A DNA stretch of 38,646 nucleotides from Syntrophomonadaceae bacterium (GTDB lineage: Bacteria; Bacillota; DSM-12270; Thermacetogeniales; Thermacetogeniaceae): the NCBI GenBank assembly GCA_012840385.1, contig DULK01000020.1, positions 1-38,646 on the forward strand. Direction: 5' to 3'. The notes under the pieces were generated by a model. It saw nothing but the letters and a program-made list of their open reading frames with translations, ran no database searches and had not been told where the DNA came from. Position 1 is the first letter of the stretch; each line of letters starts with the position of its first letter. This document shows, piece after piece, positions 2,723 to 38,142 of the stretch. Both the position numbers and the translations under genes were made by a program.

Positions 2723-2725
2723 CTG

Positions 2726-3721: not shown

Positions 3722-3746
3722 CTTTCAGCCTCCTCGAACCATCTTT

Positions 3747-4244
3747 TCAAGCCCAGCAAAATTCAGCATAGGCGCATTTGCCACAGAAGCGTATTTTCTC
3801 TGGCAGAGGGGCTTGATCTTGGGCGATCAGGGCAAGGATGCGAGCCTTCAATTCTTCTACCTGCCGCGCAAGGCTCTCATCGAGCACCACCCGTTCTCTT
3901 CGGCGCTCTTCAGGGAAGAGCAACTCCCCCTCTGCCTCCATCCCCATCTCCCGCAGTTCATAGAGGTAAAAGGCCAGTTGCATCCGCGCAGCTTCCCGGG
4001 CGCGGGAAGATTTCTTGACCTCACCGATGACGAAATCCCGCCCGCCGCGGCGAACGAGGTCAATGCAGAGATGTTCCAGGCGCACCTCTTTCCGCTCACG
4101 CCCGAAGGACTGCGCCCCGATCAGGCGACCCAGCTGGAGGTAGACATTATCCTCATCGGGGCAAATCTGGCGGGACATGAGCCACGCTTGGCGCGGGCAG
4201 ATCTGATACGCCTGGACGAGACTTCCAACGATGCGCACTTCCAT
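3747..4244 (-). CDS. cas4: Cas4, RecB-like nuclease with 4Fe-4S cluster
   Basis: 165 aa, a typical short Cas4. C16 (in CPRQAWL) and C154, C157 and C163 at the C-terminus (FCGKCAYAEFC) can hold the 4Fe-4S cluster. The RecB nuclease core includes GEVKKSS and the downstream QLAFYL motif. Cas4 trims prespacers and selects those with the right PAM before Cas1-Cas2 integrates them. It lies 22 nt after cas3 and just ahead of cas1. A diverged, broken second cas4 occurs at 21184-21400 and is clearly a different lineage at the DNA level. Confidence 0.95.
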   Translation of the reverse strand: MEVRIVGSLVQAYQICPRQAWLMSRQICPDEDNVYLQLGRLIGAQSFGRERKEVRLEHLCIDLVRRGGRDFVIGEVKKSSRAREAARMQLAFYLYELREMGMEAEGELLFPEERRRERVVLDESLARQVEELKARILALIAQDQAPLPEKIRFCGKCAYAEFCWA

Positions 4245-4266
4245 GCCTCACTGCCCCTTTAGACTT

Positions 4267-6771
4267 TTAAAAGATCAGCGCATCTTCCTGTTCGCAGCGT
4301 TTAAACCCTGTTTCCCTGTCGTAGAATTCATCGAGGAGATACGCCGGGATCACAAGCGGGCGTGAATCAACAGGCAGCCTATGCACAACCAACTTATTCG
4401 GAACAGATACCAGGTAACGATGAAAATCCCGCTTGATTTCCAGAAAGGCTGCCCATCTCCGCCGCAGGTCTCTTTCCTTAGCCACTGTCTTCTGATACCT
4501 TTCCCAGATCCCTTCTGCTCGCTCGTCTACACAGATGAAGATATCGTTGTAATATGGGAGCTGACGGATGAGCTGGAAGTCGCTGACGCAAGCAACACCT
4601 TCTCCGGCAGCCGAGCTTTTGAACCGGAGGGCAGTCATCGCCCGCAGAATGGCTTCGCTCTCTGCAGCAGATTTATTTTGGCGCACAGCGCTGAAATACT
4701 CAGCGACTAGTTCGTAAAAATCCGGCTCCTCAAGATAGGTGCAGCTGGAGAAGAGGCACCGTGCCGTGAATGTGTGGATCCTGCCGTAAACATAGGAGGC
4801 CAGGCTCAGACCTTCATCGCCTCTACGGTCTACCAGGTGCACGAGGCGGACATCCCCTTGCTTTTTCCGGAAATGCCGGTTGCAGCGCCCAGCCACCTGC
4901 ACAACAGCATCGACAGGGCCAAGGTCGCGCCAGACCACATCAAAATCGAGGTCAACGCCCGCCTCCACCACCTGCGTGGAGATTACAACCGGTTTTTCTC
5001 CACTGGCGAGGGATTCCCGGATTTCCGCAATACGCCTCTGCCGCTCTGCAGGAACAATGTTTGTGGAAAGATAATAAAGGGGTACCTCGCTCCCCAACGC
5101 CTCCCTCAGAATGTTGTAAAAGACCACAGAGCTTCTGATGGTGTTCAGCACGACAAGATAGGACATGCCCCGCTGATGCTGTTCCAGGAAAGCAGCTGCC
5201 GCCTCTTCGACCGTGCAGGGCGTAGTATCAACCACCAGCCTCACCCTGTTCAGCGCCGCAAAGCGCCTCCGCACCGCCTCTGGATCGCCCGCCAGTTCCC
5301 AAACTTCCTCGGGCTCAAACCACTCCGGCCGTGTAGCGGTCATCAAGATCACTCGCATATCGAGGTGAGAGCATGCCTGCCGCAGGCTCTCTTCAACGAG
5401 CGGCCAATACTCCACGGGGATGTTCTGCACTTCGTCCAGGAGGACCACAGCCCCGCCCAAGCGATGGAATTTCTTGAGCATCCTGTTCTCGTAACCTACC
5501 AGGGTATGGAAGAACTGGACAAAAGTCGTGACAACGACCTCGCTCTGCCACGACTCGATGAGCAACAGCGCCTCATCCAAGGGGCTTTCTGCCTCACCCG
5601 GCGAGCGCAGATAAGATAAGTCGGCGAGATGGTGATGTTTCAAGATCAGTGATGTGGGAAGAGCATCAGGTGGCAGCTGCAGGGCGGTACACAAGACGTC
5701 TTCACCGACGGCAAAAGCCTGGTCGATAATGCTAGTGAAGGGCAATGCATAGATGATCCGGGGCGGAGTGCCGCGCTCCTCTGCAAGCCGCTCCCGTAGG
5801 CAAAAGGCGGCAGCCAGCGCCGCCAGGGTTTTACCGGAACCGGTTGGGGCGGTGAGTGAGAACAGCCTTTGCTCCAGGGGAGCCTGCCGGATCCGTTCGG
5901 CGACGCAACGGTAGAGATCCTCCCTGAGGGCATCGACAGCAGTAGCTGGCGGGCCATATTTCGCACCGCGATAGCGCTCGACCGCATCAGCCGGGATCGG
6001 CATCCGGCTGGGCTCGCTGACCCGCGCCGCATGGATCTTATCGGCATCGATGAGCGCAGAAAAGAGGGAAAGGATGCCAAAGTAAAGGCCGAGATCCCTA
6101 CACCTCGATCCCGCTGCCTCAGAGGCCAGCCTCTGCCTCTTGAAGCGGCGCCAGAAACCGAAGAACCCTCTATAAACATCCTTCCATCCGGCAAGAAAAT
6201 CAGCTAAAACCTCACCCCAGTCGCCTCTCAGCCATTCAGGCGAGGGGAGCGCGCGGGCGGCAAGGAGCCTTGCCGCCCAACGGCCAGCTGTCCCCAGGGA
6301 AGCGGTGATCTCCTCTCTGCGCTGTTGCAGATCAGCGATCTGGGCGACAACCACCCGCAGCTGCTCCCTCGTCCTGCAGTCCAGCTCCGCCCAGTCGCCA
6401 TCGAGGTCTGCAGGTGAGACGAGGCTCTCCTCGGGATCCCCCAGATCCTGGTGATGGCGCCCTACAGCAAAATAGATCGCCAGCTGCTGCTCTGGCGGCA
6501 GGGAAAGCCGGCGCGCCAGATAAGCCCCCCACAGCCCTGAAATGAGGGCGTGCTGCTTTTCAGCCCCACCACGGCCCGTCCGCAGGTATGACTGAAAATA
6601 GCTGGTATATTTTCCGAAATCATGCGCCAATCCTGCCACCAGGGCTGCAGAGTAAAGGGTTTCCCTCGTTGGGGAGGAGGAGAGCCTCTCCGCAGCTCCA
6701 ACCGCTACCCAGGCCAGATGGGCACTCAGGGGATAGAATTTTTGCTCCACCCGATGAGCATAGCAGCGCAT
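4267..6771 (-). CDS. cas3: Cas3, HD nuclease-helicase of type I-B
   Basis: 834 aa. The N-terminal HD nuclease domain has H50-D51 in GLAHDFGKYT. The superfamily 2 helicase has the Walker A motif TAPTGSGKT, the DExH-type box LLDEVQN, motif III (LMTATRP), and motifs V/VI (STQVVEAGVDLD, VVQVAGRCNR). All key motifs are present, so the enzyme should be active: it is recruited by the Cascade R-loop, unwinds target DNA and degrades it. The gene begins 6 nt after cas5. HD and helicase are fused in the usual I-B order. Confidence 0.97.
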   Translation of the reverse strand: MRCYAHRVEQKFYPLSAHLAWVAVGAAERLSSSPTRETLYSAALVAGLAHDFGKYTSYFQSYLRTGRGGAEKQHALISGLWGAYLARRLSLPPEQQLAIYFAVGRHHQDLGDPEESLVSPADLDGDWAELDCRTREQLRVVVAQIADLQQRREEITASLGTAGRWAARLLAARALPSPEWLRGDWGEVLADFLAGWKDVYRGFFGFWRRFKRQRLASEAAGSRCRDLGLYFGILSLFSALIDADKIHAARVSEPSRMPIPADAVERYRGAKYGPPATAVDALREDLYRCVAERIRQAPLEQRLFSLTAPTGSGKTLAALAAAFCLRERLAEERGTPPRIIYALPFTSIIDQAFAVGEDVLCTALQLPPDALPTSLILKHHHLADLSYLRSPGEAESPLDEALLLIESWQSEVVVTTFVQFFHTLVGYENRMLKKFHRLGGAVVLLDEVQNIPVEYWPLVEESLRQACSHLDMRVILMTATRPEWFEPEEVWELAGDPEAVRRRFAALNRVRLVVDTTPCTVEEAAAAFLEQHQRGMSYLVVLNTIRSSVVFYNILREALGSEVPLYYLSTNIVPAERQRRIAEIRESLASGEKPVVISTQVVEAGVDLDFDVVWRDLGPVDAVVQVAGRCNRHFRKKQGDVRLVHLVDRRGDEGLSLASYVYGRIHTFTARCLFSSCTYLEEPDFYELVAEYFSAVRQNKSAAESEAILRAMTALRFKSSAAGEGVACVSDFQLIRQLPYYNDIFICVDERAEGIWERYQKTVAKERDLRRRWAAFLEIKRDFHRYLVSVPNKLVVHRLPVDSRPLVIPAYLLDEFYDRETGFKRCEQEDALIF

Positions 6772-6777
6772 ATGTGA

Positions 6778-7542
6778 TCACTCCAGAAAAGCCACCGTCT
6801 CCTCGTCCCCCGTTGCGGCATCGCTGAAGCGATAAGAGGGGACGCGCAGTGCGGCAGAAAGCGGTTTTCCGCTGCTCTCGTACACAACGGCAATCGGCGG
6901 CCGCAGCGTCCTCCCGGCGCCGAAGCTGTACGGGGCGCGCTCACGCACGAGGTTTAAGGTTTTCCCACCTGAAAAATCAATCTTGTCCAGGTGCGCAACA
7001 TTTAAGACCGAAGCGAGCTCCACCGTCGTCCCCGGCGGCACCTCCTGATAATCCCCTGTCCCATAAATGTTCACAAACCTGGCACCAGCCAGGCACTCCG
7101 TAATCCCCAGGTACAGGGGGAAGCATGTCCGCCCCTCACGCAACCGGTCGCCAGCCTCCTGCACAAGGCCGGTATCCGGATGACTGAAAAATACCCGGAA
7201 GCAAAGAGATCTCGCATCTCCTGCAGGGAGAAGAAACTCCAGCGGGGTTTGAGTGCCAGGCACCTGCTGCAGCCGCCGCAGCAGATTAAGGTCTTCTTTT
7301 TTCGTGCGTACATAGTTAACCGTCTGCAGCAGGCGGCGGGTGGGTGCTTTAACGGCAACAGCAAAACGGCCGCGGTTCAGCTCTTCGTAATAAGTGTCCC
7401 GCTCAAACCCCAGGATAGCAGCAACAATTCCCATCAGAACGGTGCGCGGAGGAAAGCCATAAGTAAGCGATGATGTATTCGTGTAGTATTTGCGGAAATG
7501 GGCCATCGGCCCAAACAGGTCAAAAACCATCACAGCTTTCAA
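6778..7542 (-). CDS. cas5: Cas5, type I-B Cascade subunit
   Basis: The N-terminus KAVMVFDLFGPMAHFRKYY and the early glycine-rich segment (PPRTVLMGIVAAILG) are typical of Cas5h/Cas5b, which caps the 5' handle of the crRNA. I place the start at the TTG at 7542 because AAAGGA lies 9 nt upstream and the resulting 254-aa protein begins like family members; an upstream TTG at 7560 overlaps cas7 and adds six residues. The gene follows cas7 after 4 nt and precedes cas3. Confidence 0.92.
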   Translation of the reverse strand: MKAVMVFDLFGPMAHFRKYYTNTSSLTYGFPPRTVLMGIVAAILGFERDTYYEELNRGRFAVAVKAPTRRLLQTVNYVRTKKEDLNLLRRLQQVPGTQTPLEFLLPAGDARSLCFRVFFSHPDTGLVQEAGDRLREGRTCFPLYLGITECLAGARFVNIYGTGDYQEVPPGTTVELASVLNVAHLDKIDFSGGKTLNLVRERAPYSFGAGRTLRPPIAVVYESSGKPLSAALRVPSYRFSDAATGDEETVAFLE

Positions 7543-7546
7543 GCTA

Positions 7547-8515
7547 TCAGGTCCTTTCAATGGCCTTCACCTTATCCGCCCCTAACAGTTCTGCAAGCCA
7601 GGCTGCTACAGGAGTCTCCTGCCCTGCAACAGCAGTACAGAGTTCAGGATCCTGGAAAACGAGTACCTGGTCGATCCGCTCCTTAAAGCGCTCGAGCCGC
7701 CTACCCAAGGCTGTCAGATCCAGAGAGAAATCTTTGACCGAGCGCAGGTCCTGGTCAGGATTCATCACCAGATCGTCGCGCATGTCACCGATGAAAGTCT
7801 CCCCGTCGCTGAAGATCAAACGGAGATAAAGCCGCGGGTACTGGCCGATCTTCGAGCGGGTAGCAGCGAGCGGTATCGCCTGGACCATCGCCTCGTCCAA
7901 GCGTTCCAGATCAGCCTCGCTGGTGGCAGCTGCTTCGTTTCCGCCGGCACGCTCCCGCATCGCCAGGGCACGACGGGCGCTGACGATCCCATGGAAAGCG
8001 ATCAGTGCATAATAGATCCTGTAGTCCTTGCCGAACGTCCCCTGGCCGGCCTGTTCGCGCGTGGCGAACTGCGAAGAGATGGTCACGGAATCGACAAACT
8101 GCACACGGTTGAGGGAATAACCCCACGTAAACTGGACTGGCCCGGTGAGGTTGACCGCCTCCCCCTCACCCCTCTTGGCGCCCTTGATCGGCATCGTGGC
8201 GCCGAAGAGGCGCACATCGATCAACCTTTCCAGAAGAGCCGGGAGATCTTCACCGCTCACGTTATCCTTTCCCAGCACCTTCTTGAGCCGCTCAGCAGCC
8301 TGCACAACCCCTTCTGCCTTGGTGACATAGATGAGCTGGCCTTTATCCTCCAGATAGTCCCGGATGTAGCGCTTCAGGCGCACATCCGACACCAGGCAGC
8401 GCTCCCTGTCAGGGTCGAAGCGCGGCCGGTTTTCATCATCTGGGTCTCCGTTGGGGTTGCACATCTTGGCATCATAAAGAAAGAGTATCTCACTGTTTTT
8501 ATCAACAGTACTCAT
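7547..8515 (-). CDS. cas7: Cas7, type I-B Cascade backbone (DevR/Csh2 family)
   Basis: 322 aa. The N-terminus EILFLYDAKMCNPNGDPDDENRP matches the DevR-family Cas7 signature (NPNGDPD). The protein polymerises along the crRNA spacer in Cascade. Its ATG overlaps the cas8b stop (ATGA), which implies translational coupling. A C-terminal charged segment ends at the cas5 ribosome binding site. Confidence 0.94.
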   Translation of the reverse strand: MSTVDKNSEILFLYDAKMCNPNGDPDDENRPRFDPDRERCLVSDVRLKRYIRDYLEDKGQLIYVTKAEGVVQAAERLKKVLGKDNVSGEDLPALLERLIDVRLFGATMPIKGAKRGEGEAVNLTGPVQFTWGYSLNRVQFVDSVTISSQFATREQAGQGTFGKDYRIYYALIAFHGIVSARRALAMRERAGGNEAAATSEADLERLDEAMVQAIPLAATRSKIGQYPRLYLRLIFSDGETFIGDMRDDLVMNPDQDLRSVKDFSLDLTALGRRLERFKERIDQVLVFQDPELCTAVAGQETPVAAWLAELLGADKVKAIERT

Positions 8516-8955
8516 CGCTCAGCATCCCCCTCCTGTTCATCCTGCGCTTTTGCCTTCTCCCTCTCCGCCCAGGCCTTGAGCGCCATGCGCGTGCCGTAGG
8601 CATACCCTGAAAGGATGTAAAAGACGTTCTCCTCAGGTGAAAGCGGCCACTCCTGCTGATGGGCGCCGGGCCTGTAGGCGTCGAACAGGCCTTTCATCAC
8701 CGCAAAGAGCCCTTCACAGTACTTCAAGATGTCATGCTGCCGCAGCTGGTCCACCAGCAGATTCGCCAGCCGGACAACTTTCGGCCAGGGCATCCCGGCA
8801 TAGTTCACCTTCTCCAAGACCGGTTTGCTCTCATAGCCGCGCTCGTATTGTTTCTGCCCTACCTGGTGTAAAAGATAACCCAGGAGGAAAAGCGCCGTCT
8901 GGGGCTCATTGTAGGCCATAGCCTCAAGATAATTCCTCATCCCCTCCGGCAGCAC
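8512..8955 (-). CDS. Putative internally initiated Cas11b small subunit within cas8b
   Basis: An in-frame GTG at codon 525 of cas8b (8955-8953) is preceded by AGAGGAGA at 5 nt, a good internal ribosome binding site. It would give a 147-aa, mostly helical protein identical to the Cas8b C-terminus. Other in-frame starts nearby (ATG at 8991 and 8940) have purine runs but poor spacing. In type I-B, I-C and I-D systems Cas11 is known to be made by internal initiation in the large-subunit gene. Here the role and the exact start are inferred. Confidence 0.4.
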   Translation of the reverse strand: MLPEGMRNYLEAMAYNEPQTALFLLGYLLHQVGQKQYERGYESKPVLEKVNYAGMPWPKVVRLANLLVDQLRQHDILKYCEGLFAVMKGLFDAYRPGAHQQEWPLSPEENVFYILSGYAYGTRMALKAWAEREKAKAQDEQEGDAER

Positions 8956-10527
8956 CTCTGTCTCCTCTCGCAGCGGAGCGCTCAATGGCATCCCTCCTCG
9001 TAACAGTTCCTCCTCATCTAAAAACTTCAACAACAGGTTCGCCTGCAGCAGGCGCTGCGTCCATTCCAGCTCCTCATTCCCCGCCTTCGGCTGGGATACA
9101 TTCGTCCCCGCATAACCCCCTGCCTGGAAGATCCTGACAAGAGATACGAATTCCCTGATCAGCCAGGTGCGCTCGATGGGTTCGCCAGTGAGCAAGCTCT
9201 GGTAGACGTGGAGCAACTTCTTATACTCCACCCTGCGCGGCCCCTCATTGAGCGGGATAAGGCGGTAAATGGCTGTGAGATCGAGCCACCACCTGGCCTG
9301 GCCCAAGACTTCCTCAGCCATAGCAGCGATCCGGTGGCTCCGGCGCAGGAACCGGGAGATTCTGCCCGGCGCCACATCCTTGATCAGAGAGAGGATGCGG
9401 AACTCGCTCCTCCCCTCCGAGTAACTGTAAAAAAGGAAGTTCAAAAGAGCCGCATTGGCGTAGGGCAGCCCCTCCAAGAGGTATTGCAGTTCTCTCTCCA
9501 GGCCGCTCCTGCCGCCTATCTTTTCCAGCCACCCGGCGAAGTCGGTGAAGGCACCGACCCGCACCTTGAGGCTCTCCACCCATGCCAGCAGATCGTCTCG
9601 GGAGAGCTCTGGCTCCTTAAGAAAAGCGGGCAACACCAAGAAGGATAGCCTCCCTACTCTGAGGCTTAACCCGTCCTGGACGAACTTCTCTGCCAGGGAA
9701 AGCCCTCTAAAGCACTCTTCACAGGCCTGGAAGTTACGGGCAAAACCCTCCTCTTCCAGACCCGAGGCTGCCCCAAGCTTGTCTGTGATATAGTACTTCA
9801 AGAAGTTCAGTCGGGTGAAATCCGTCGTAACCGGCCGGTCTGTTGCGCCGCAAACGGAGCACACTCCTCGCTCTCTGCTGTCAACAGCCGCATCTTTGCC
9901 GCTCAGCAAGATCCGGTCATAATCGGGGTCAGCCGCCAAAGGCTCGCCATCGAGCAAGATGGTCCAAAGGGCTGCCTCCTTGGCTTTGAGGCCAAGCTGC
10001 TTGAGCGCCCACTTTTCCAAGAACCCCGCCACCCCTGAAATGACCTCTTTCGCCGGATCCTGAGGCTTTCCCGTCTCTTGTTCCCAGAGAGCAGTGATCA
10101 GATCCTCATCTGTCAACTCGAGCCTCTGGGGGTCGAGCACCCGCGTACCATCAGGTAGCTTGCGGTAAAACAGTGCGACAAGCCGGGACAACCTGCGATG
10201 GAGACTGCCGTTTTCCAGCCCGCCCACCTCCAGACGCTCCAAGAGGTTCTCTGGCACCTGCCCGACAAGGTAATCAAGCCTGCCGCTGGTCAGACAGATC
10301 TGAGGCCGGTTGCCTTTTTCGTGCCCCACCCAGCGATACTGGAGAAGGGCAGACCGGTCGATCTCCTGCATTTCCACAGTTAAAGGCTTCCCGCCGCCTG
10401 TCTGGAAGTTCAACTTGACAAGGTAAATCCTCTCGACATCGGCAGGCTTCTTGACAGTCTTGATCAGATCAGCCACCGAATAATCCTCAGCCAGCTTCCT
10501 GCCGATCAAGGCAACAGCTTCCAGCAA
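8512..10527 (-). CDS. cas8b: Cas8b large subunit of type I-B Cascade (TM1802/Csh1 family)
   Basis: 671 aa. A zinc-finger-like centre has CSVCG followed about 50 residues on by CEEC, as in Cas8b/Csh1. Position ahead of cas7-cas5-cas3 supports the call. The protein recognises the PAM and holds the target DNA. The start is TTG at 10527 with AGGGGGTG upstream; no ATG fits. The last ~150 residues are helical and probably also made separately as Cas11 (see the internal start at 8955). It is the first gene of the I-B block after a 147-bp gap. Confidence 0.88.
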   Translation of the reverse strand: MLEAVALIGRKLAEDYSVADLIKTVKKPADVERIYLVKLNFQTGGGKPLTVEMQEIDRSALLQYRWVGHEKGNRPQICLTSGRLDYLVGQVPENLLERLEVGGLENGSLHRRLSRLVALFYRKLPDGTRVLDPQRLELTDEDLITALWEQETGKPQDPAKEVISGVAGFLEKWALKQLGLKAKEAALWTILLDGEPLAADPDYDRILLSGKDAAVDSRERGVCSVCGATDRPVTTDFTRLNFLKYYITDKLGAASGLEEEGFARNFQACEECFRGLSLAEKFVQDGLSLRVGRLSFLVLPAFLKEPELSRDDLLAWVESLKVRVGAFTDFAGWLEKIGGRSGLERELQYLLEGLPYANAALLNFLFYSYSEGRSEFRILSLIKDVAPGRISRFLRRSHRIAAMAEEVLGQARWWLDLTAIYRLIPLNEGPRRVEYKKLLHVYQSLLTGEPIERTWLIREFVSLVRIFQAGGYAGTNVSQPKAGNEELEWTQRLLQANLLLKFLDEEELLRGGMPLSAPLREETEVLPEGMRNYLEAMAYNEPQTALFLLGYLLHQVGQKQYERGYESKPVLEKVNYAGMPWPKVVRLANLLVDQLRQHDILKYCEGLFAVMKGLFDAYRPGAHQQEWPLSPEENVFYILSGYAYGTRMALKAWAEREKAKAQDEQEGDAER

Positions 10528-10674
10528 AAAGATTCACCCCCTCTCCATCATATCAACCCTGCCTCGCAATACTCGCAAAGCAAGATTTTTTCTTCCTAAT
10601 ACATTAGCGGACCAGAAATCTGCTCTTTAGAAAAAACCTTACCTTTTTCCTTAGGATTGAATTACTATCTCAGA
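10528..10674 (-). other. Intergenic gap between csx1 and cas8b
   Basis: 147 bp, AT-richer than its surroundings, and the largest gap inside the cas block. It divides the III-B half from the I-B half, so an internal promoter is plausible. The best candidate is an extended -10 (TGATATGAT on the minus strand, near 10548-10556), which would leave only a very short leader. I see no convincing -35 and no clean terminator. Confidence 0.3.
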
Positions 10675-11916
10675 TCAAGGCAATAACTTCCAGAGTTTTT
10701 TCACCTTCTCCTTCGCCTTCCGAATAATGGTTTCCGGTGATTCTGGGTTCTCATTCATGGCGCAATGAGCGACATCGTTCCTGAAGTTCGTCAGGTCATT
10801 CCACAGATGTGCCAAATCCTCCGCCTCCGGCAGTTGCTTGTACCACTCCGGAAGAGAATCCATCCCTCTTTCCTTCCTGCAGAAGACCAAAACAGCTAAT
10901 CCTAACGCATCCTCAATGTTTTTGCGCTCACGCTTAGACCGCCACTTCTCTAACCCCATGCACCATGCCAACCAGTTTATAACCCATTCCCTTTCCATCA
11001 AGGCAGCCTGCACAATAAGTCCTTTCTCAATAAAGTAGTCGATCAGCGACAGCTGAGCTTTCAGTAGCTTTTCGTCGAGTGTGCTCACATCACTAACAGC
11101 AAGAGGAGTGAGTTCCTCCGTGACGCGAGAAAGGATATGCTTAAAAGGCTTCGCCCAACGCACCGCCTCTTGCTCAATGTTTTTGGCGCGAATCAGCGCC
11201 CGGGACCCCGAAGCTAAAGCGTCCAAAGGCCTAAGCAGCCTCATTGAGCGAGAAAAGTCCCTGATACACTCCCCCATCTCCTTGAGCTGCCGCGGAAGCT
11301 CATTTCTCCTACCTTGAGCGGCTCTCCAGGGCCGTCCCTGAGCCTCTTCAAGCAGCTCCGCCAACCTCTCCCCTTCACACCTGTTCTGAAAGTCCTCAAC
11401 CCCAAGCATCCACTCCTGCAGCTCCATCATCATCGTGAGATCAAAAACTGGGACAGACGGCACATCCCCTGCGGAATTGTCCCTGACATCATATGCTCCG
11501 TAGACGATCCGCTCCAAAGCTACCCCCTTGGTCAACCTGAGATAATTGATGACACCAAAGACAATGAACGGCAGAGAGCGAAGGGCATGCGTCACATCGA
11601 GAATTACTCTGGAATCACTTGGCACAGAATCCGCCACGAGCTCAAATATCTGCCAGAGCTCGTCCTCGTTCTTACCCAGGGGAACCATTACAGGCTGCAG
11701 TCTCTCCCCAAACGCCTTTTCAATCCTTTCATAATTTTTGTGAGAGCGAGCATCCTCAGTGACGATCAGCAGCAATTTATCCGGGTGAAAGAAGGCGTCA
11801 ACTGCAAGCGGGAAAAGATCTGTGCGGCACACCTGCTGTTCTCCACGCTCTGAAAGCCAAAAGTAGTCCCCCACCTTGTAATCAGTAGGGACAACGCTAG
11901 AAAGAGCCACGAGCAT
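10675..11916 (-). CDS. csx1: Csx1-family CARF-HEPN ribonuclease (TM1812 type)
   Basis: 413 aa. The N-terminal CARF domain includes ILDVTHALRSLPFIVFGVINYL and VYGAYDVRD, typical of TM1812-family Csx1 proteins. The C-terminal HEPN domain has the RNase motif R379-N-x3-H384 (RNDVAH). Such proteins are switched on by cyclic oligoadenylate made by Cas10/Cmr2 and then cut RNA non-specifically. The start ATG has AAAGGAG upstream. The gene lies between cas6 and cas8b, about 20 nt after cas6, in the same operon as a GGDD-containing Cmr2 that could supply the ligand. Ligand size (cA4 or cA6) cannot be told from sequence alone. Confidence 0.88.
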   Translation of the reverse strand: MLVALSSVVPTDYKVGDYFWLSERGEQQVCRTDLFPLAVDAFFHPDKLLLIVTEDARSHKNYERIEKAFGERLQPVMVPLGKNEDELWQIFELVADSVPSDSRVILDVTHALRSLPFIVFGVINYLRLTKGVALERIVYGAYDVRDNSAGDVPSVPVFDLTMMMELQEWMLGVEDFQNRCEGERLAELLEEAQGRPWRAAQGRRNELPRQLKEMGECIRDFSRSMRLLRPLDALASGSRALIRAKNIEQEAVRWAKPFKHILSRVTEELTPLAVSDVSTLDEKLLKAQLSLIDYFIEKGLIVQAALMEREWVINWLAWCMGLEKWRSKRERKNIEDALGLAVLVFCRKERGMDSLPEWYKQLPEAEDLAHLWNDLTNFRNDVAHCAMNENPESPETIIRKAKEKVKKLWKLLP

Positions 11917-11936
11917 CGGCTCAACTCCTTTCTCCC

Positions 11937-12695
11937 TTAACTCGTCTGCTCAACAACTGGGATGCAGCAGCCGTAGCCCTGGGAGTTCTTCGCACCGAGG
12001 CCGGCATCCAGGGCAACCTGCAAGAGGCCGGGATCTCCACTAAGCTCGTATTCCCCCATCCAACCCTTCACAACCGTCTCCTTGTAGTAAGTGACCTTCT
12101 GGTCGCTGTCCCTCACCCCCACCGGCCTGAGAGCAAAGCCCTCAGACTGAGCAGAGCGACCGTAGATCAGCAGGTGCTTCTTAGCCAGGTTTTCGGCGAC
12201 AAGGTCTGCAAACCGCGGCTCAAAGGGAGAATAATAATATGTATATTTCTTCCCATCGCCGTTGGCGAAGGTGCTGTAAACCACCAGAGGCGAGAGCATT
12301 CGGACTCTCAAGGCAGCCTGCCTTACACGGGGAGCAGCGGTGGAGAACTTCATCACCTCCAGCCTGGCGTTCCCCAGCCTCACGCTCCCCTCTTTCAGAA
12401 AACCTGTGCCTAATTCCTGGAGAATAAAGGGGATCGGGGAACAGATGAGGAGGCGGATGGGGGGTGTAAACACCAGACAGCCTTTTTCTCTGTCGTAGCG
12501 CACCTCCTTCCCCAGCAGCCGGGAAAAGGTGAAGAGCTTAAACCGCCGCTTCTCCAAGACAAATCCCTGGTCGTGGAGGTAATTCCTGAGCACAGGATTA
12601 TCCAGATGTCTGTAGATCAGCCCCTGGACCAAATGGCTGTACTGGACAGGGATGGCCACCGGCCCCGGAGCGCTGAAGAAAACAGTCAGTTGCAC
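11937..12695 (-). CDS. cas6: Cas6, crRNA-processing endoribonuclease
   Basis: 252 aa with two ferredoxin-like halves. The C-terminal glycine-rich loop GLGAKNSQGYGCC is the Cas6 signature. Histidines in the N-terminal YSHLVQGLIYRHL segment are candidates for catalysis. It cleaves the repeat to leave an 8-nt handle, expected here to be AUUGAAAC. The GTG start has an AGGAG-rich stretch just upstream. It lies between cmr6 and csx1 and is the only Cas6 in the window, so it should serve both complexes. Confidence 0.9.
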   Translation of the reverse strand: MQLTVFFSAPGPVAIPVQYSHLVQGLIYRHLDNPVLRNYLHDQGFVLEKRRFKLFTFSRLLGKEVRYDREKGCLVFTPPIRLLICSPIPFILQELGTGFLKEGSVRLGNARLEVMKFSTAAPRVRQAALRVRMLSPLVVYSTFANGDGKKYTYYYSPFEPRFADLVAENLAKKHLLIYGRSAQSEGFALRPVGVRDSDQKVTYYKETVVKGWMGEYELSGDPGLLQVALDAGLGAKNSQGYGCCIPVVEQTS

Positions 12696-12725
12696 CTCCT
12701 ATTCCTCTCCTCCAACCCAAAATTT

Positions 12726-13865
12726 TCATGCATTTTCCGGCAAGAACTTCTTGATCTCCGCAATTTTGACTGCATTTTTCTTGTTCGGTTTTTGCCACTG
12801 GTCGGACTTATAGGTCATGTACCAATCCTTAAGTAAAGCTGCGATCTCTTGTTTTGTATTTAACGGCACCTGTTCATCTTGTAATTTTTTCAACCACTTA
12901 TTAGTCAAAAACTCCATAAAACGATCAGGGTTGCTGCTATACCCGTCATCCTCCATTTCTTTGCGGATTGGGCTTACTGCCTCGTTCCTTTTCTCTTCTG
13001 TTGGCATTTCAGCCAAGCCATCTGTCAACGATATTTCACTGATCTCAGAGATCGGGCGTCTGCGAAAGATTTTGTTTGTAGCTTCATCATCAGGCGCAAA
13101 CCGCCCATAACCAACAGCAGTTTTTGCACCAGCACCAATATACTCAAGAGCTTTAGTTAACCATTCCATAACCAAGTGACAATCAGCACGGCTCTGTTCA
13201 TCTTCTGGTCGGCGAGGCGCCAGTGCAAAAAGGAATACTTGTCTGGGCGCAACAGTCAGAAAAGGAATAGGCACAGGATCATACCAATCACCAGGCGGGT
13301 TTTCGGGCCTCTCCTGCTGATAATAAACGCTGTAATGGGGCGTCATAACATCTGCTTCTAATTTCACCGGTTCAATGGGGAGAGCATCGAAAAAAATGAC
13401 ACTTCCGACATGCTTATCTATTCCCTCTCCCTCTGGACCAAATATCCGTACTATTTTATCTGAATCTTGTGAGTCACCAAACCTTTCAGCCCATGTTCGT
13501 ACAATTCCTTTTACCGAAGATCCGGGGAGAAAGGGAACTCCCAGCGTATGGTGCCAAGCAAACCCGTTCTCAACCGGGTGTGGGCGTCCCAATCCGGTGA
13601 CAAAACGCCAGTCAGTCCCAAAACAACGGCATTCACCGTCGAGGGCACGGACCAAGCTTGTCAGACGGGATACAGCTTCCTCCAACAGAACTCTGTCTCC
13701 TACCGGTACCTTACATACTTCCTGAATCCATCTCTTTTTCCCATCTTCTTCTACTGTCCAATCGTTCCTCCAAAACATGAAGAATTTATCGTACCATAGG
13801 CCTGTATTAAAACCTCTCGTATAACCTTGTGGTACACGAAGGCCGGCATATAACGGGAGAACCAT
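12726..13865 (-). CDS. cmr6: Cmr6, type III-B Cas7-like subunit
   Basis: 379 aa. FVTGLGRPHPVENGFAWH followed by PFLPGSSVKGIVRTWAE is the Cmr6 RAMP signature. Near the C-terminus AKTAVGYGRF is the second glycine loop. It caps the 3' end of the Cmr complex. I take the ATG at 13865, with GGAGGTG 5 nt upstream, 4 nt after the cmr5 stop; the frame stays open further upstream but overlaps cmr5. The region after the RAMP core (about residue 260 onward) is polar and low-conservation. Confidence 0.92.
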   Translation of the reverse strand: MVLPLYAGLRVPQGYTRGFNTGLWYDKFFMFWRNDWTVEEDGKKRWIQEVCKVPVGDRVLLEEAVSRLTSLVRALDGECRCFGTDWRFVTGLGRPHPVENGFAWHHTLGVPFLPGSSVKGIVRTWAERFGDSQDSDKIVRIFGPEGEGIDKHVGSVIFFDALPIEPVKLEADVMTPHYSVYYQQERPENPPGDWYDPVPIPFLTVAPRQVFLFALAPRRPEDEQSRADCHLVMEWLTKALEYIGAGAKTAVGYGRFAPDDEATNKIFRRRPISEISEISLTDGLAEMPTEEKRNEAVSPIRKEMEDDGYSSNPDRFMEFLTNKWLKKLQDEQVPLNTKQEIAALLKDWYMTYKSDQWQKPNKKNAVKIAEIKKFLPENA

Positions 13866-13869
13866 CCTC

Positions 13870-14277
13870 TCACCTCCCGATAGAACCAGGATTTTTGAGG
13901 AAAGCCACGGCAAACTTTTTCATCCATTCTAGCCATGCCAGAGCTTCGGCCTGGGCGCGCAAATAAGTTCCACGGTCACAATTAACGATCGCAGCCATGA
14001 GATCATTCTCAGCACGGTACGGCGCCTGAGGTTCATCGCGGCAGAGCCATTCCTCCAAGCAACTATAGAGGAGATAATGGGCATCACTCCTGTCACCCCT
14101 CGCTTGCGCCAACAGCATCGCTACTGCCTGGCCAAAGCCGTTAGTGAGAATCATCGACGGCAGATTCTCCACATAGGAAACAAACATCTCCTGCTTTTCT
14201 TCAACATAATCACGCTCGATTTGTTTCACTTTATTTAAAGCATGTTGGGCTCTTTTTTGCTCCAGCGTCTGCATCAT
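13870..14277 (-). CDS. cmr5: Cmr5, type III-B small subunit
   Basis: 135 aa, all-helical, starting with the typical segment TLEQKRAQHALNKVKQI. It also has LPSMILTNGFGQAVAML, a conserved Cmr5 patch. Cmr5 (Cas11-like) forms the inner filament contacting the target strand. The ATG overlaps the cmr4 stop (ATGA). Confidence 0.93.
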   Translation of the reverse strand: MMQTLEQKRAQHALNKVKQIERDYVEEKQEMFVSYVENLPSMILTNGFGQAVAMLLAQARGDRSDAHYLLYSCLEEWLCRDEPQAPYRAENDLMAAIVNCDRGTYLRAQAEALAWLEWMKKFAVAFLKNPGSIGR

Positions 14278-15119
14278 GATGCATCACCTCTGGATACCCG
14301 CAGGCCTATGGAACACCAACCCTGGCCTATTGTTTCATTCCCGCCAACCTGCAAGTATGGTCTCTCTCTAAATATTTTTTCTAGCTCTTCTAAAAGGCCA
14401 TCTTTTCCAGAGCGTTCAAACAATAATGCGTAAAAAAGAGTATCAGGCGGGATGGTTTCTTCATGCCACAGGTTCATACTTGTTTTGGTATCATTTTCCA
14501 GAACATTGCGGGCATTTACTGGCAAGCTGTAACGGGCAAAATAGGCGAATTCTTCATCACTAACGATTACAATTCCACCCACCAAGCGCTCCCGCACAGA
14601 AGCATATCGGATTAAAGAACTTATAGACTCAACTATCGGCGTAAGATTATCGAGAATCACATCGAAAGAAAGTTCCTCCAGGAAGAGTTGCGTCTGGTTC
14701 TCTCCATGGTCTCGATTCATTACAGCTTGCCCTTTCGCCGGTTGGGGCAATGGGAGGTCTCCTGCCTCTATTCCCGCGAGCTTCAAGTCACGAGAATAAC
14801 GCTCTAGGAGATAAGGACAGGTTAACCATTTGAAATGACCGCTCAGTGAGCGCACCGGCAGGAGCAGCAGCCGCGCATCGGTTACTGCTATAGCACCAGC
14901 GCTTTCTTGCTCACCAAAAATCCGCTTAACTCTTTCATCTTCAGTTCCCCAGACCTGTTCAGCCCGGTCGCGCAAGGCACCTTTTAGGCTTGAACCGAAG
15001 ATAACCGGATAATCAGTGGTTTTCTCCCGCGCTACAGGCAGATCAACAGCACCTACTACTTGGCCGATTCCCGGATGAAGGCTGGTTTCGGCTAGCAAAC
15101 CAAGAAGCATACTCCTCAT
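14274..15119 (-). CDS. cmr4: Cmr4, target-RNA-cleaving backbone of type III-B
   Basis: 281 aa. The segment GAVDLPVAREKTTDYPVIFGSSLKGALRD, cited here by its parts AVDLPVAREK and GSSLKGALRD, carries the conserved aspartate of Cmr4 that cuts target RNA at 6-nt steps. Since Cmr2 lacks an HD domain, Cmr4 is probably the only target nuclease in the complex itself. The start is ATG at 15119, overlapping the cmr3 stop as ATGA and with GGAGGAG upstream; an earlier ATG in the same frame at 15137 would sit inside cmr3 and lacks a good site. Confidence 0.93.
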   Translation of the reverse strand: MRSMLLGLLAETSLHPGIGQVVGAVDLPVAREKTTDYPVIFGSSLKGALRDRAEQVWGTEDERVKRIFGEQESAGAIAVTDARLLLLPVRSLSGHFKWLTCPYLLERYSRDLKLAGIEAGDLPLPQPAKGQAVMNRDHGENQTQLFLEELSFDVILDNLTPIVESISSLIRYASVRERLVGGIVIVSDEEFAYFARYSLPVNARNVLENDTKTSMNLWHEETIPPDTLFYALLFERSGKDGLLEELEKIFRERPYLQVGGNETIGQGWCSIGLRVSRGDAS

Positions 15120-16219
15120 TTTTTCTCCTCCTCCCATTTACCAATAACGATTTGTCCGAAGCCATAAGCTTCACGGGAACTCAAACATTGTCCATGCAAT
15201 TTGGTTATCTCCTCGGCGTACTGAGGATCTCCTTCATAGAACCAAGTGCTTCCCGGCGGCACCACAGATATAAGACTTCGCGGTTGGCGATTAAGGAGAT
15301 CCCAACCTCCGATCTGCTGGACCTTACCAATGCATGCCGAAATGCAGCGTCCCGGCACGCCCGGGGGCCCCTCGCAGATCACCCGCTCAACATCCTCCAA
15401 TTCGCCATAACAACCCGGCGTGATTAAGGTCACAGTAAAGCGCAGCTTGCCGTCTTGTCCACCAGTCAAATGAGGTGGCGGCGGTAGAAGTTGAGCGGGC
15501 TCTCCAGCCTCAACCTCCACTGCAGCGAGGCGACTTTCTCCTCCGAGGGAAAGGATCCGTTGATTGCTTACCTGCCATTTCCCCGGAATACCTAATACAA
15601 ATACTACCAGTTTTACTTTTGGACGAGGCCGAATATGAACGCAGTTATAGAGATGTCCTTCCAGGGCTGTGCGAGTGGTATCCTGGCGCTCCAACCCGAT
15701 ACGTGATTCTTCAACCCAAAGCTCATCTGACCTTTTTGTATCTTTCTTGGTTGGTGTTCCTCCCTCCAAAACAGCAGCCAGACCATCCCGGGAGATGTAA
15801 CATCCCTCCGGCACCTTCGCCCCCTCGATGGGCCGCTGCGGCACGGGAAGGCTGACATATCCCAAATCGCACTCAACCTGTTCTCCAGGCAACAGCCTTG
15901 TAAAATCACCATCTTTCTCTAACAGAAGAAGTGGCATTGAGAAATACGGTTGATCTTCAAAACAAAGATACGGGCCACGGAGCTTTAGCTCCCCAAGATC
16001 ATTGGGTCCACCCAATTCTTTGGGCCAGAGTCTCTCCTCGCCTGGAAGCCAGCCTCGCTCTAGAGCCAGCGATGTCCGGATGGCACCCTGAATGGTGAAC
16101 ATTGTCGGCGGAAAAATAGTACGAGTAGTCGTGTACCCACCTTCACCAGAATTAAAGGGAGATGAATTTCGGAAAAAGCAGGTATCGAGGGCCCGGAAGG
16201 TCCACCGTTGCCAGTTCAT
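15116..16219 (-). CDS. cmr3: Cmr3, type III-B Cas5-like subunit
   Basis: 367 aa. The start WQRWTFRALDTCFFRNSSPF and the C-terminal SSREAYGFGQIVIGKW glycine loop are typical of Cmr3, which binds the crRNA 5' handle and contacts Cmr2. Start ATG overlaps the cmr2 stop as ATGA. A central stretch (about residues 150-200) is a variable insertion. Confidence 0.9.
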   Translation of the reverse strand: MNWQRWTFRALDTCFFRNSSPFNSGEGGYTTTRTIFPPTMFTIQGAIRTSLALERGWLPGEERLWPKELGGPNDLGELKLRGPYLCFEDQPYFSMPLLLLEKDGDFTRLLPGEQVECDLGYVSLPVPQRPIEGAKVPEGCYISRDGLAAVLEGGTPTKKDTKRSDELWVEESRIGLERQDTTRTALEGHLYNCVHIRPRPKVKLVVFVLGIPGKWQVSNQRILSLGGESRLAAVEVEAGEPAQLLPPPPHLTGGQDGKLRFTVTLITPGCYGELEDVERVICEGPPGVPGRCISACIGKVQQIGGWDLLNRQPRSLISVVPPGSTWFYEGDPQYAEEITKLHGQCLSSREAYGFGQIVIGKWEEEKK

Positions 16220-18129
16220 CTTTCCACCCCCTTCTGGACAAGGAATTTCACCAGAAGAGCGCCATCGAGAGTGAGAGCTTTTTCATTTCTTTGAAGATTG
16301 CCTTCTTTATCACGCCATGCAGGGTGACAGATCTTGAGTAATCGTTTCATCCTTTGCTGGGCAGTTGACCAGTCGACTTCACGCTCCCGGTTCTTGAGGT
16401 ATTCAGCAGCCAAAATGTTGATCATCTCATCCTCAGTCCAAGCTGAGAAAATATGCCCCTCTTCATCAGCCAGGACTCTAAACTGTGCTCGAAGATTATA
16501 GAAAAATGTATTGTTATACTCGCTATCTTTGGAATCATTGATCTTAAAGGTATCCACCATCTCATCAATAATATTGGGTTTACCATCCCTGATTATCTGC
16601 CAAGGAGCTGCCCACGTTAGTACCCGCCCTGCGCCCTTCCATACAGTTATAGCCAGGCTATCACGGCCAGTTTTAGCCTTCGCTACATCGTCAAGCAAGC
16701 GGTGGGCTTCTCTGATCACCGAGGCCAACGGAGTGTTGTAATGCGCATAGATGAGAGCGCCGGAAATTGTCGCCTGCTCCGGAGGCACTTTGCTCCGGGC
16801 AAAGCACCTACCATATTCGCAGTGCAGGGCAACAGCTGCTTTGAGTGCACCATCTAAAGGCAGTAAAGCAAGGACATCGTCACCGCCGGCATAAACAGTT
16901 ACGCCGTTATATTCACTAATAATTTCCTTCACACGCTTGCTGAAGCCGTTGAGAGCTCTGCTCACCTCTTCGGCCTTGTAATTTTTTAGGAGCGCTCCCA
17001 TTCGATCGCCATCCATAAAAAGCAATGCATAAAAAGATGAAGGAGACGCCCCTATTTCTTCATGAAGTTGTTTCAGTTTTTTGATCAATTGCTGACGTAA
17101 GTCATCATAAATTTTCCTTTGTGATTCGGCGATATCCCAGAGACGCGGGTTGGCAATCGCGGTAGTAAAGAAGCAATTCCCATCCAGCGATGCAAACTCC
17201 CGGGCCTGCTGGTGTTCCGACAGAGCCTTCTGCAAACGAGGGAACCGTTCAGGATTCTCACGGTACTTAGCCCCTGGAAGGCGTGCAGCCGCAGCAGCAT
17301 ACTGCCTTGCGCCGTCAGGGTTAATTTCAACTGCCTTTTCGATCCACGGCAGAGCGGCAAGATAGGGCGTTGAAGGGTAACGTTCACATTCTGATAATCT
17401 CCACCCGATAGCCTTCTCCGCACCTAGAGGAAAAAGTCGCTTGATCAGCCCGATGGCGGAAAGGCGTTCTTTTTCATCGATCTCATATCCTCCAACTTGT
17501 TTTCGCAGTGCCGCCCAGAAGGCGTCTTGCTTTTTCCGCTCACGGCTACGTACATAACCCGAGAGTTCCTGGAGGTTGCCCATCAGAGTACATTTGTCAC
17601 CTGGCTCTTCCGGCAGCACATGACAACGCCAGTTCTTACGCCGGCCCAAGATATCCTTGTCACTTTCACCTCCAACGGCCCAAGCAATTTCCCAGAAGGT
17701 ATTCACCTGGCGTTCCCATATCTCCCATGTTCCCTGGCCTTTATCAGCAACCGGCTCCATATAGTTCTCCCATACTGTTTTCGCGACCCGCTGCCATGCC
17801 CTTTCGACAGCCTGAACGCACAGTTTAGGGTCAAAACCGGCAGGAATAAAAGCCATGAAACGGTTAGGTATCGTAGCAATCACAGGGCCCTCACCGATAT
17901 GTTCAGATTTGCGAGATCTCTGAATAGCTGCCAGCAAAAGATCCGGCTCCTCATCATCCACATAAGGTAAGATCATCTTTCCCCCCGACTCAATCAACTC
18001 ACACATGGCATGTCCAGTGAGATAAGACAGAATAAATGAACCCGCCCAGAAATCACGCGTCTTTCGGGCTTGAGCTACAAATCCTTGAACTGGGCCCAGA
18101 GAGAAATGCAATATCCTCTCAGAATTCAT
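16216..18129 (-). CDS. cmr2: Cmr2 (Cas10), cyclic oligoadenylate synthase without an HD domain
   Basis: 637 aa. GGDD at about residues 415-418 (TVYAGGDDVLALLPL) is the Palm polymerase motif that makes cyclic oligoadenylate. The protein begins directly with SLGPVQGFVAQARKTRDFW, which in longer Cmr2 proteins lies after an N-terminal HD domain of about 200 residues. No HD motif is visible anywhere and the preceding gene leaves no room for one. DNase activity is therefore not expected, while signalling is. Start ATG at 18129 overlaps the cmr1 stop (ATGA); a TTG two codons earlier is less likely. The Zn-binding cysteines of some Cas10 proteins are not obvious here. Confidence 0.92.
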   Translation of the reverse strand: MNSERILHFSLGPVQGFVAQARKTRDFWAGSFILSYLTGHAMCELIESGGKMILPYVDDEEPDLLLAAIQRSRKSEHIGEGPVIATIPNRFMAFIPAGFDPKLCVQAVERAWQRVAKTVWENYMEPVADKGQGTWEIWERQVNTFWEIAWAVGGESDKDILGRRKNWRCHVLPEEPGDKCTLMGNLQELSGYVRSRERKKQDAFWAALRKQVGGYEIDEKERLSAIGLIKRLFPLGAEKAIGWRLSECERYPSTPYLAALPWIEKAVEINPDGARQYAAAAARLPGAKYRENPERFPRLQKALSEHQQAREFASLDGNCFFTTAIANPRLWDIAESQRKIYDDLRQQLIKKLKQLHEEIGASPSSFYALLFMDGDRMGALLKNYKAEEVSRALNGFSKRVKEIISEYNGVTVYAGGDDVLALLPLDGALKAAVALHCEYGRCFARSKVPPEQATISGALIYAHYNTPLASVIREAHRLLDDVAKAKTGRDSLAITVWKGAGRVLTWAAPWQIIRDGKPNIIDEMVDTFKINDSKDSEYNNTFFYNLRAQFRVLADEEGHIFSAWTEDEMINILAAEYLKNREREVDWSTAQQRMKRLLKICHPAWRDKEGNLQRNEKALTLDGALLVKFLVQKGVER

Positions 18130-19271
18130 GGCCAAACCACCACTCTTGAGCTAAAGGCAGGTCTTTCAAAGAACTCTTCAATTACCCTGTAGCCGACATT
18201 ACAGGGAAGATAAACAGATTGCCGTTTGGGACATCTAATAGCAACCCGTTCCCTTTCCGGCAGAAACATCGCTGGCAGCAATGTCATCACCGCAGCATAC
18301 TTTTCTTCTCCTAACTCATGGATATGAATAAAGAGGGGGCTCGCACGCCGTTTGAGATGCTCCGCCTCTACCATGGCCTTTTCTCTTAAGCTCTGGAAAA
18401 AGTAGTTATGAGGCAAGCCAAAAACAATACGACGGGGATGGCGATGGATTTCCCTGCCGGTCAAATAATCCTGGATAATATCGTGATCATCTCTGAAATT
18501 CTGCTCCGCCCTTTCAGACCACGGAAGCACATGTTCGCTCCCCTTGAGCCGTCCATAGCTGCGATAGCGCAGAAGTTCTTTCTCAATCTCGTCTAAAAGA
18601 GCGAGGGCGTTTTGGCTAGTTTTCACAATGCATACTTTTGTATCCGAACTAAAAGCAGTATATAAGGGTCGTGAAACAAAAACACCATGCGGATTAATCT
18701 CCCTCAAGAAATCTCTCATCACCTGCTTTAGTTCATCCGTATTAGCAGGCCTTTGCCAGATTTCTTCTCCATCGAGACAAAGAGACTCTAGAGAGAGCGA
18801 ACCAAATCCCTTTCGCGATCGTGCACCTGCACCCCCAAAGAGCCCAAGGGCTTCCAACGCTTGAATGAGCAATGCACTTTGTTCTTGGCGTAGGCTTCGG
18901 TTTAAGATGAGACGTACTGTAAATCTTCCCCCTGGCTTTAGATACGGGCGCAACGTATTACCTTTAGTATCAATCACTCCGTATCCTAAATAGCCTATCC
19001 CATGTCCCTTTAAGGAATTTTGAGCTTTCTGAATATTTATATCGGTCACGGACATCATAAAAGAAGCTTGGTTCTTTGTGCTGCCAAACAGCTCCCGCTC
19101 CATAGCCCATACTGCATCCAAAGATCCAAGCTGTGGCAGAGCTAGGGCACGAAACCAGAAACGCAACAGCCCTTTTAAAGATGGTGGACGGATTTCAGCT
19201 ATTTCTTCTGCATCTGCCCCTCCTAAAAAAAGGGGCGTAGTAATCTTATAAGTAGCTTCCAACTTTAACAC
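18126..19271 (-). CDS. cmr1: Cmr1, type III-B Cas7-like subunit
   Basis: 381 aa. The N-terminus ATYKITTPLFLGGADAEEIAEIRPPSLKGLLRFWFRAL matches Cmr1 (parts: TTPLFLGGAD and SLKGLLRFWFRA). GLFGGAGARSRKGFGSL is the glycine loop. Cmr1 sits near the 3' end of the bound target and helps capture RNA. The GTG start has GGAGGGAG upstream. A 63-bp gap separates it from the Csx15-like gene. Confidence 0.92.
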   Translation of the reverse strand: MLKLEATYKITTPLFLGGADAEEIAEIRPPSLKGLLRFWFRALALPQLGSLDAVWAMERELFGSTKNQASFMMSVTDINIQKAQNSLKGHGIGYLGYGVIDTKGNTLRPYLKPGGRFTVRLILNRSLRQEQSALLIQALEALGLFGGAGARSRKGFGSLSLESLCLDGEEIWQRPANTDELKQVMRDFLREINPHGVFVSRPLYTAFSSDTKVCIVKTSQNALALLDEIEKELLRYRSYGRLKGSEHVLPWSERAEQNFRDDHDIIQDYLTGREIHRHPRRIVFGLPHNYFFQSLREKAMVEAEHLKRRASPLFIHIHELGEEKYAAVMTLLPAMFLPERERVAIRCPKRQSVYLPCNVGYRVIEEFFERPAFSSRVVVWP

Positions 19272-29237: not shown

Positions 29238-29263
29238 AACCGGCACTCAAATGAGTGCCGGTT
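29238..29263 (-). terminator. trp leader terminator hairpin
   Basis: A 26-bp near-perfect palindrome: AACCGGCACTCA, two bases, TGAGTGCCGGTT, followed on the minus strand by a short T-rich end (TTCGTGTT). It lies about 25 nt upstream of the trpE start and shares 29260-29263 with the alternative hairpin at 29260-29284, so only one can form. Confidence 0.85.
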
Positions 29264-29284
29264 ACGGTCCAACACCGGATAACC
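29260..29284 (-). promoter_or_regulatory. trp leader antiterminator hairpin
   Basis: On the minus strand GGTTA-TC-CGGT, loop GTTGG, ACCG-TAACC: a 9-bp stem with a 2-nt bulge. It overlaps the terminator arm by exactly 4 nt and begins next to the last TRAP triplet (AAG at 29286-29288). AGTG from that triplet could also pair with CACT of the terminator arm and extend it. TRAP bound to the triplets would block it and favour termination. Confidence 0.7.
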
Positions 29285-29285
29285 A

Positions 29286-29390
29286 CTTCACTCATCTCAG
29301 CTCATCTCAACTCCGCTCAACTCGTCTCGGCTCGTATATGCGTTTTTCGCTCTTCTCGGCTCTTCCAAACCTCTGCCTGAAACTATCCTA
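29286..29390 (-). promoter_or_regulatory. TRAP binding site in the trp leader (GAG triplet repeats)
   Basis: On the minus strand, nine GAG triplets and one AAG are spaced at exactly 5 nt from 29333 down to 29286. After a 16-nt gap, three more GAG triplets sit at 29362-29350 at the same spacing. Further upstream are GAG (29373-29371) and two UAG triplets 5 nt apart (29390-29383). Tryptophan-bound TRAP, an 11-subunit ring, binds such (G/U)AG repeats with 2-3 nt spacers. The TRAP gene (mtrB) is not in this window. Confidence 0.85.
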
Positions 29391-29399
29391 TTGCCTTAG

Positions 29400-29428
29400 A
29401 GTATAAAAAATGACAGTTCACCTGTCAA
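29400..29428 (-). promoter_or_regulatory. trp operon promoter
   Basis: TTGACA (29428-29423), 17-nt spacer, TATACT (29405-29400) on the minus strand: a consensus sigma-A promoter. Transcription should start near 29393, giving a leader of about 180 nt before trpE. Confidence 0.9.
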
Positions 29429-37922: not shown

Positions 37923-37970
37923 ACCATCATCCATGCTTACGCCTGCCCCTTCCGCGAGGGCGGCATAAAC

Positions 37971-38118
37971 TTTTCAGGCAGGTCTCCTGACTCGGTTCCT
38001 CGCGCATCTGCCCCTTCCCCCGTCTCCGGAGTGGTCCGGCAGGCGCTCCCCTTCACAGTGGCGGGTCCGTCCGGGACTTGCACCCGGTTCCCTATTCTCC
38101 CTTGCGGGCACCTGAAAA
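37971..38118 (-). promoter_or_regulatory. Cobalamin (B12) riboswitch aptamer
   Basis: Closing stem P1 TTTTCAGG (38118-38111) pairs with CCTGAAAA (37978-37971). Inside are GGTGCAAGTCCCGGACGG and the B12 box GACCCGCCACTGTGA, then the 3' part GAGTCAGGAGACCTGCC. Family assignment is firm. It should repress the bza operon when cobamide is plentiful. Confidence 0.95.
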
Positions 38119-38142
38119 GCGACCCATATTCACTTTACGATT

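Follow-up and report, generated by a model that had tools for sequence, protein, structure and literature searches.

Which regulator acts on the trp operon of a bacterium outside the Bacillus-like context, whose trpE gene is preceded by two evenly spaced runs of GAG triplets, and what is the role of the 16-nt gap that separates the two runs? TRAP is a textbook RNA-binding regulator that has been studied almost only in Bacillus, and reviews list its gene, mtrB, in some clostridial genomes. The trp leader of B. subtilis carries 11 (G/U)AG triplets and is the target of tryptophan-activated TRAP (PMC3913778, PMC4027176). The DNA analyzed here, a stretch of 38,646 nucleotides (the window), is contig C3 in the draft assembly (2.7 Mb, 98.8% complete) of a genome (G000) from the Thermacetogeniaceae, the family to which the genera Thermacetogenium and Syntrophaceticus belong.

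Results

In the window, trpE (anthranilate synthase component I, GTG start, 29213-27759; NCBIfam TIGR00564, 590 bits against a cut-off of 517.7) is the first gene of an operon on the minus strand, followed by a trpG-trpD fusion (27762-26125; NCBIfam NF011201, 773.5 bits against a cut-off of 670) and then by trpC, trpF, trpB, trpA and the DAHP synthase gene aroF (26134-21653; open reading frames named from sequence). Ahead of it, on the same strand, lies a sigma-70-type promoter, TTGACA-17 nt-TATACT (29428-29400), which matches the consensus at 11 of 12 positions, where shuffles expect 0.1 occurrences, and which is identical in a congener (G010). Three scattered triplets, UAG (29390-29388), UAG (29385-29383) and GAG (29373-29371), occupy the 5' end of the leader and are possible, if not essential, TRAP contacts. 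They are followed by an upstream block, GAG cc GAG aa GAG (29362-29350), by the gap of 16 nt (29349-29334) and by the main predicted TRAP-binding block of nine GAG and one AAG (29333-29286), both blocks at an exact spacing of 5 nt. The consensus promoter, the thirteen (G/A)AG triplets in two blocks and the additional triplets further 5' are thus all present as a preliminary description of this DNA had reported them. The same holds for the gap that splits the triplets into 10 and 3; the suggestion that the ring may loop it out is not supported in so far as the gap is no passive stretch but contains a conserved box.

The tenth and final triplet of the main block, AAG, is non-standard with respect to (G/U)AG, and the congener G010 has GAG at this place. 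The longest exact (G/U)AG chain in the window counts nine triplets. When the full window was shuffled 200 times with its dinucleotides preserved, no chain was longer than four, which excludes chance as the source of the array. In a pattern search of the 2.7-Mb genome, a six-triplet pattern was unique to the trpE leader. Nine exact triplets, the AAG and three more upstream agree with the approximately 9-12 triplets at 2-3 nt that one expects of a TRAP attenuator.

Do the triplets also take part in a switch? All fold energies given here are computed. The predicted antiterminator (29297-29249) consists of an inner hairpin, GGUUAU/GUAACC, and of an outer helix of 7-9 bp in which AGAUGAGUG (29297-29289) pairs with CACUCAUUU (29257-29249); taken alone (29300-29251), it has a free energy of -18.4 kcal/mol. 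The terminator hairpin (29263-29238; -19.8 kcal/mol alone) has 11 bp, AACCGGCACUC AUUU GAGUGCCGGUU, and is followed by the broken U-tract UUCGUGUU. In the computed folds, the nascent RNA adopts the antiterminator as long as it ends at the terminator loop, and the terminator once its 3' arm is present. The outer helix of the nascent RNA takes in triplet 9 and a part of triplet 8, and the antiterminator, which in this way contains the last triplets, excludes the terminator. When the ten-triplet block is forced to be single-stranded, the outer helix is gone and the energy of the whole nascent RNA changes from -38.8 to -21.7 kcal/mol. Since the outer helix uses triplets 8-9, the binding of TRAP would open the antiterminator, as it does in B. 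subtilis.

The logic of the B. subtilis leader, which the preliminary description had proposed for this one, is therefore found here too, in the form of exclusive folds that depend on the triplets, and folding the leader with and without blocked triplets, as had been suggested, bears this out. Two details had to be revised. Namely, the two hairpins are indeed exclusive, but the 4-nt overlap assigned to them is too small, as the terminator's 5' arm is contested by the antiterminator in its distal part too; and the antiterminator does not lie entirely beyond the triplets, the last of which sit in its outer helix. A reading frame of 26 codons, one of them for Trp (29295-29215, minus strand), begins beside triplet 9 and spans both antiterminator and terminator. 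Its counterpart in T. phaeum ends after 8 codons, and the frame does not look conserved.

The regulator itself is encoded in the same genome. In particular, a search finds mtrB on another contig (C40) at 138 bits (E 2e-40). Its product scores 141 bits with the MtrB equivalog model (cut-off 117), and the greater part of it can be aligned with the sequences of solved TRAP structures (E ~1e-28). The gene is flanked by a dnaE-like frame on one side and, past one small frame, by an accD-like frame on the other, these neighbors being named by eye. The analysis covered 20 genomes from the order, 18 of which carry the gene, and one scan of genome contigs returned at least 530 mtrB loci, the best 80 of which are mostly from Clostridia-type Bacillota, with some from Paenibacillus. 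Anti-TRAP (rtpA, PF15777), which would complete a circuit of the B. subtilis type, was not found in this genome, where the search gave only a 22-bit partial match (cut-off 32) inside a 399-aa frame.

How widespread are such leaders? Leaders with triplets and a terminator stand before trpE, or before an operon of DAHP synthase and trpE, in most genomes of the order with a recovered trp operon, so the triplet arrays are kept in relatives. As mtrB is in the genome too, neither of the two observations that the preliminary description had named as a refutation of its TRAP reading was made. By sequence comparison, leaders of the TRAP type are found throughout the family, and of 299 genomes sampled from the phylum 52, or about one sixth, contain seven or more triplets in a chain, a share whose true value is somewhat lower because a few of these chains are simple repeats (e.g. 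in G122, G139 and G105). With leaders throughout the family and in about one sixth of the phylum sample, a leader outside Bacillus is unsurprising in itself. The preliminary description was right to place it outside a Bacillus-like context, but, given the number and kind of mtrB loci, not in presenting this as exceptional. In the phylum sample, the triplets precede trpE, trpD, aroF, iorA-like and trpP/ECF-transporter genes (names partly by eye). A terminator-like hairpin lies within 110 nt in 55 of the 82 collected sites. At least 4 bp between the terminator arm and the last three triplets are formed in 14 of these 55 sites, and the leader in the window, as a shortened fragment, has 3 bp; this phylum-wide criterion is too strict, because many antiterminators, including that of the window, pair one triplet and the linker. 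At the sites L019-L031 and L197-L260, from across the phylum, many terminators of TRAP-type leaders are near-identical, approximately AACCRGYRCTCATTTGAGYRCYGGTT, with a 5' arm CTCAT that is complementary to a final triplet ATGAG.

Two further genes or operons of this genome are candidate TRAP targets, as judged from their upstream regions. A second TRAP-type leader precedes pabA-pabB-pabC (L042:721-815, contig C98) and also occurs in two congeners and in G003, G013 and G014. Among the genes, PabB scores above its cut-off, the first encodes a TrpG/PabA-type amidotransferase and the third an aminotransferase IV protein. As this leader has its own terminator, it points to regulation by attenuation. 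At a trpB2-like (TrpB-like) gene (contig C87, upstream of 43281; L221, L237), the triplets span the ribosome-binding site and the start codon, an arrangement kept in nearly all family genomes that carry the gene.

Several single observations may be added from the survey. Indolepyruvate ferredoxin oxidoreductase-like genes have terminator-bearing TRAP-type leaders in two families (L134 in G001:C4 and L210 in G240:C3); a trpX-like transporter gene of T. phaeum has a TRAP-type site (L152; 354 bits, below the cut-off of 390, and a single case); one operon (L021, G002:C163) has two TRAP-type leaders, one before aroF and another before trpE, both equipped with a terminator; and the triplets at a homocitrate-synthase-like gene (L146, G013) may be due to chance.

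What, then, fills the gap in the trpE leader? At 29347-29337, 3 nt 5' of the main block, the minus strand reads AAAAACGCATA, an instance of a box with the consensus AMAAYTRMATA. The box was seen by eye in both sets of sites ahead of the formal test, and the two motif discoveries, on 31 non-redundant sites from the family and on 48 sites from other families, were run separately; their outputs, AAAACTGAATA and ACAATTAAATA, respectively, are the same motif. In cross-validation, 22 of the 48 and 18 of the 31 sites score above 6 bits, as compared with 2.8 and 1.4 in dinucleotide shuffles, and the mean for the box was reached by none of 300 shuffles. What is more, the family matrix recognizes 22 of the 48 sites from other families, where 2.0 would be expected from AT-matched real windows upstream of genes. 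The box is present in about half of the sites, the remaining ones being without a good match, and several of the collected sites come from close relatives.

The position of the box is equally characteristic. In 36 of 39 cases its end lies 0-7 nt ahead of the main block, a figure in which only the distance is used, the matrix having been built from the same instances. Searching 398 genomes for ACAAYTGMATA followed within 0-8 nt by three triplets, we found 10 places in 9 genomes and tryptophan-related genes only, while a scrambled box with triplets and the reversed pattern gave no match in the same 398 genomes. Six of the 10 places were new, and all six precede trpE/pabB-type or trpP genes; they amount to about four independent cases, since three come from one genus. 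Two or more regularly spaced triplets stand 5' of 19 of 45 boxes, with 5.2 expected, and the box is also found before triplet blocks that have no upstream triplets. The same order thus recurs in the collected sequences, with a few triplets first, then the box and then a long series of triplets, and the leader in the window conforms to it.

Two other roles for the box were considered and rejected. As half of a stem it is ruled out by the lack of excess complementarity to its own leader, the longest complementary run having a mean of 4.69 as against 4.84 for shuffled boxes; as a promoter or start-site feature it fails because its distance from the promoter ranges from about +1 to +80, while it mostly keeps within 0-7 nt of the triplets. 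The box is AT-rich, contains no (G/U)AG triplet and is apparently unpaired, i.e. single-stranded.

Discussion

The TRAP gene, the triplets and their conservation are observed and the competing hairpins are computed, and we regard it as very probable that the trpE leader acts as a transcription attenuator by which TRAP controls the trp operon. From the sequence we infer TRAP binding, termination and a response to tryptophan, which would proceed as follows. With tryptophan plentiful, the TRAP ring would occupy the triplets as the leader is made, the antiterminator would be unable to close its outer helix, the terminator would fold and transcription would end before trpE. With tryptophan scarce, the free RNA would form the antiterminator, and the operon would be transcribed.

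Could the leader work without TRAP, as a T-box or a ribosome-mediated attenuator with a leader peptide, the triplets being incidental? The 26-codon frame across the antiterminator, with its Trp codon, is what one could cite for this, but the frame has no tandem Trp codons and is cut short in T. phaeum, Rfam gives zero T-box or Trp-leader matches even at E 5, and thirteen regularly spaced triplets would be left without a role; we consider such a mechanism extremely improbable.

Concerning the box, its conservation, its lack of a pairing partner and its fixed place beside the triplets suggest that TRAP, or a factor associated with it, makes contact here. The box may be an accessory element of TRAP binding, which would help TRAP to load or would define where the wrapped RNA starts on its 5' side. 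We see a serious, if tentative, possibility that it forms a true second recognition element. In more general terms, TRAP sites in Bacillota other than Bacillus may carry a second sequence-specific element, read either by TRAP itself, in a mode not described for Bacillus TRAP, or, where anti-TRAP is absent, by a factor yet to be discovered through which TRAP regulation would be adjusted; this proposal, both alternatives taken together, is put forward with some reserve.

A site for a second trans-acting factor, be it a protein or an RNA, that modulates TRAP and, for example, replaces the missing anti-TRAP would be in line with a box that is sequence-specific, has no pairing partner and no (G/U)AG triplet, and with the outcome of the search for anti-TRAP. 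However, no candidate for such a factor emerged, and the box mostly keeps its distance of 0-7 nt from the triplets whether a site is of the attenuator or of the translation type, for which reason TRAP or its loading is the simplest explanation; we think a separate factor unlikely. The view of the preliminary description, by which the TRAP ring binds both blocks of triplets and the gap is looped out, draws on the excess of upstream triplets before the boxes, which indicates that the two blocks matter together. Yet the sequence of the gap is conserved, also before blocks without upstream triplets, and there are more triplets, thirteen, than the B. subtilis ring has subunits, 11, so that looping on its own appears rather unlikely, even if looping and a function of the box can coexist. 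12-subunit forms of TRAP exist (PMC3184956); they belong to the same protein family, and a larger ring could take another triplet. Finally, might the gap be a neutral, AT-rich spacer, kept unstructured for TRAP, and the motif a mere reflection of composition? The AT-richness of the box and the half of the sites that lack a good match would agree with this, but 22 matches against 2-3 in dinucleotide shuffles or AT-matched genomic windows, and a scrambled box of the same composition that retrieves nothing in 398 genomes, make it very unlikely.

The likeness to the B. subtilis trp leader extends to a regulator of the TRAP family, triplets at 2-3 nt spacing, exclusive antiterminator and terminator, a broken U-tract and a leader of approximately 180-200 nt before trpE (PMC3913778, PMC4027176). 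The broken U-tract could be held against the attenuator reading, but B. subtilis also has a broken one and depends on TRAP for termination (PMC3913778). The differences are that the triplets of the window are arranged as 10+3, are parted by a conserved linear box and are dominated by GAG, that no anti-TRAP was found in its genome, and that trpG is inside the operon, as a trpG-trpD fusion. The 5' stem-loop of the B. subtilis leader has a role in TRAP binding. This stem-loop has been mapped (PMC3913778), and in its place the window has a weak predicted hairpin, UUUCAGGC/GUUUGGAA, together with the box, which by analogy would take the position of the stem-loop. Translational TRAP sites of B. subtilis are known at trpG, trpP and ycbK, with triplets straddling the ribosome-binding site (PMC11255114). 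In the genome of the window, and in most of its relatives, it is the trpB2-like gene that has triplets over the ribosome-binding site in this manner, while pabA, the counterpart of trpG, has a terminator-bearing leader in place of the translational control of B. subtilis trpG.

Among open-licence papers, we found none that treats the box or the TRAP leaders of organisms other than Bacilli. The attenuator is of a known type, and the box is a component for which no description was found. The collected leaders indicate that TRAP serves much of the phylum, with trpE, aroF, pabA, trpB2, iorA, trpX and trpP as candidate targets, and an additional conserved box is seen at roughly half of the TRAP-type sites. 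Should the box take part in binding, the picture of TRAP-RNA recognition by triplets only would be incomplete outside Bacillus.

The window has other contents of note. Beside the trp operon, the minus strand at 38130-29453 apparently holds an anaerobic B12 lower-ligand (bza) operon. Behind a cobalamin riboswitch (37960-38130), it comprises two ThiC-like genes, of which NCBIfam identifies one as BzaB, cobT, a methyltransferase-DUF2284 gene and two B12-binding radical-SAM-like genes. At 183-2194, there is a CRISPR array of approximately 31 repeats (CRISPR-DR2), after which cas1/cas2-like, cas3-like and several RAMP-type genes follow (2459-19271), apparently as adjoining type I and type III systems.
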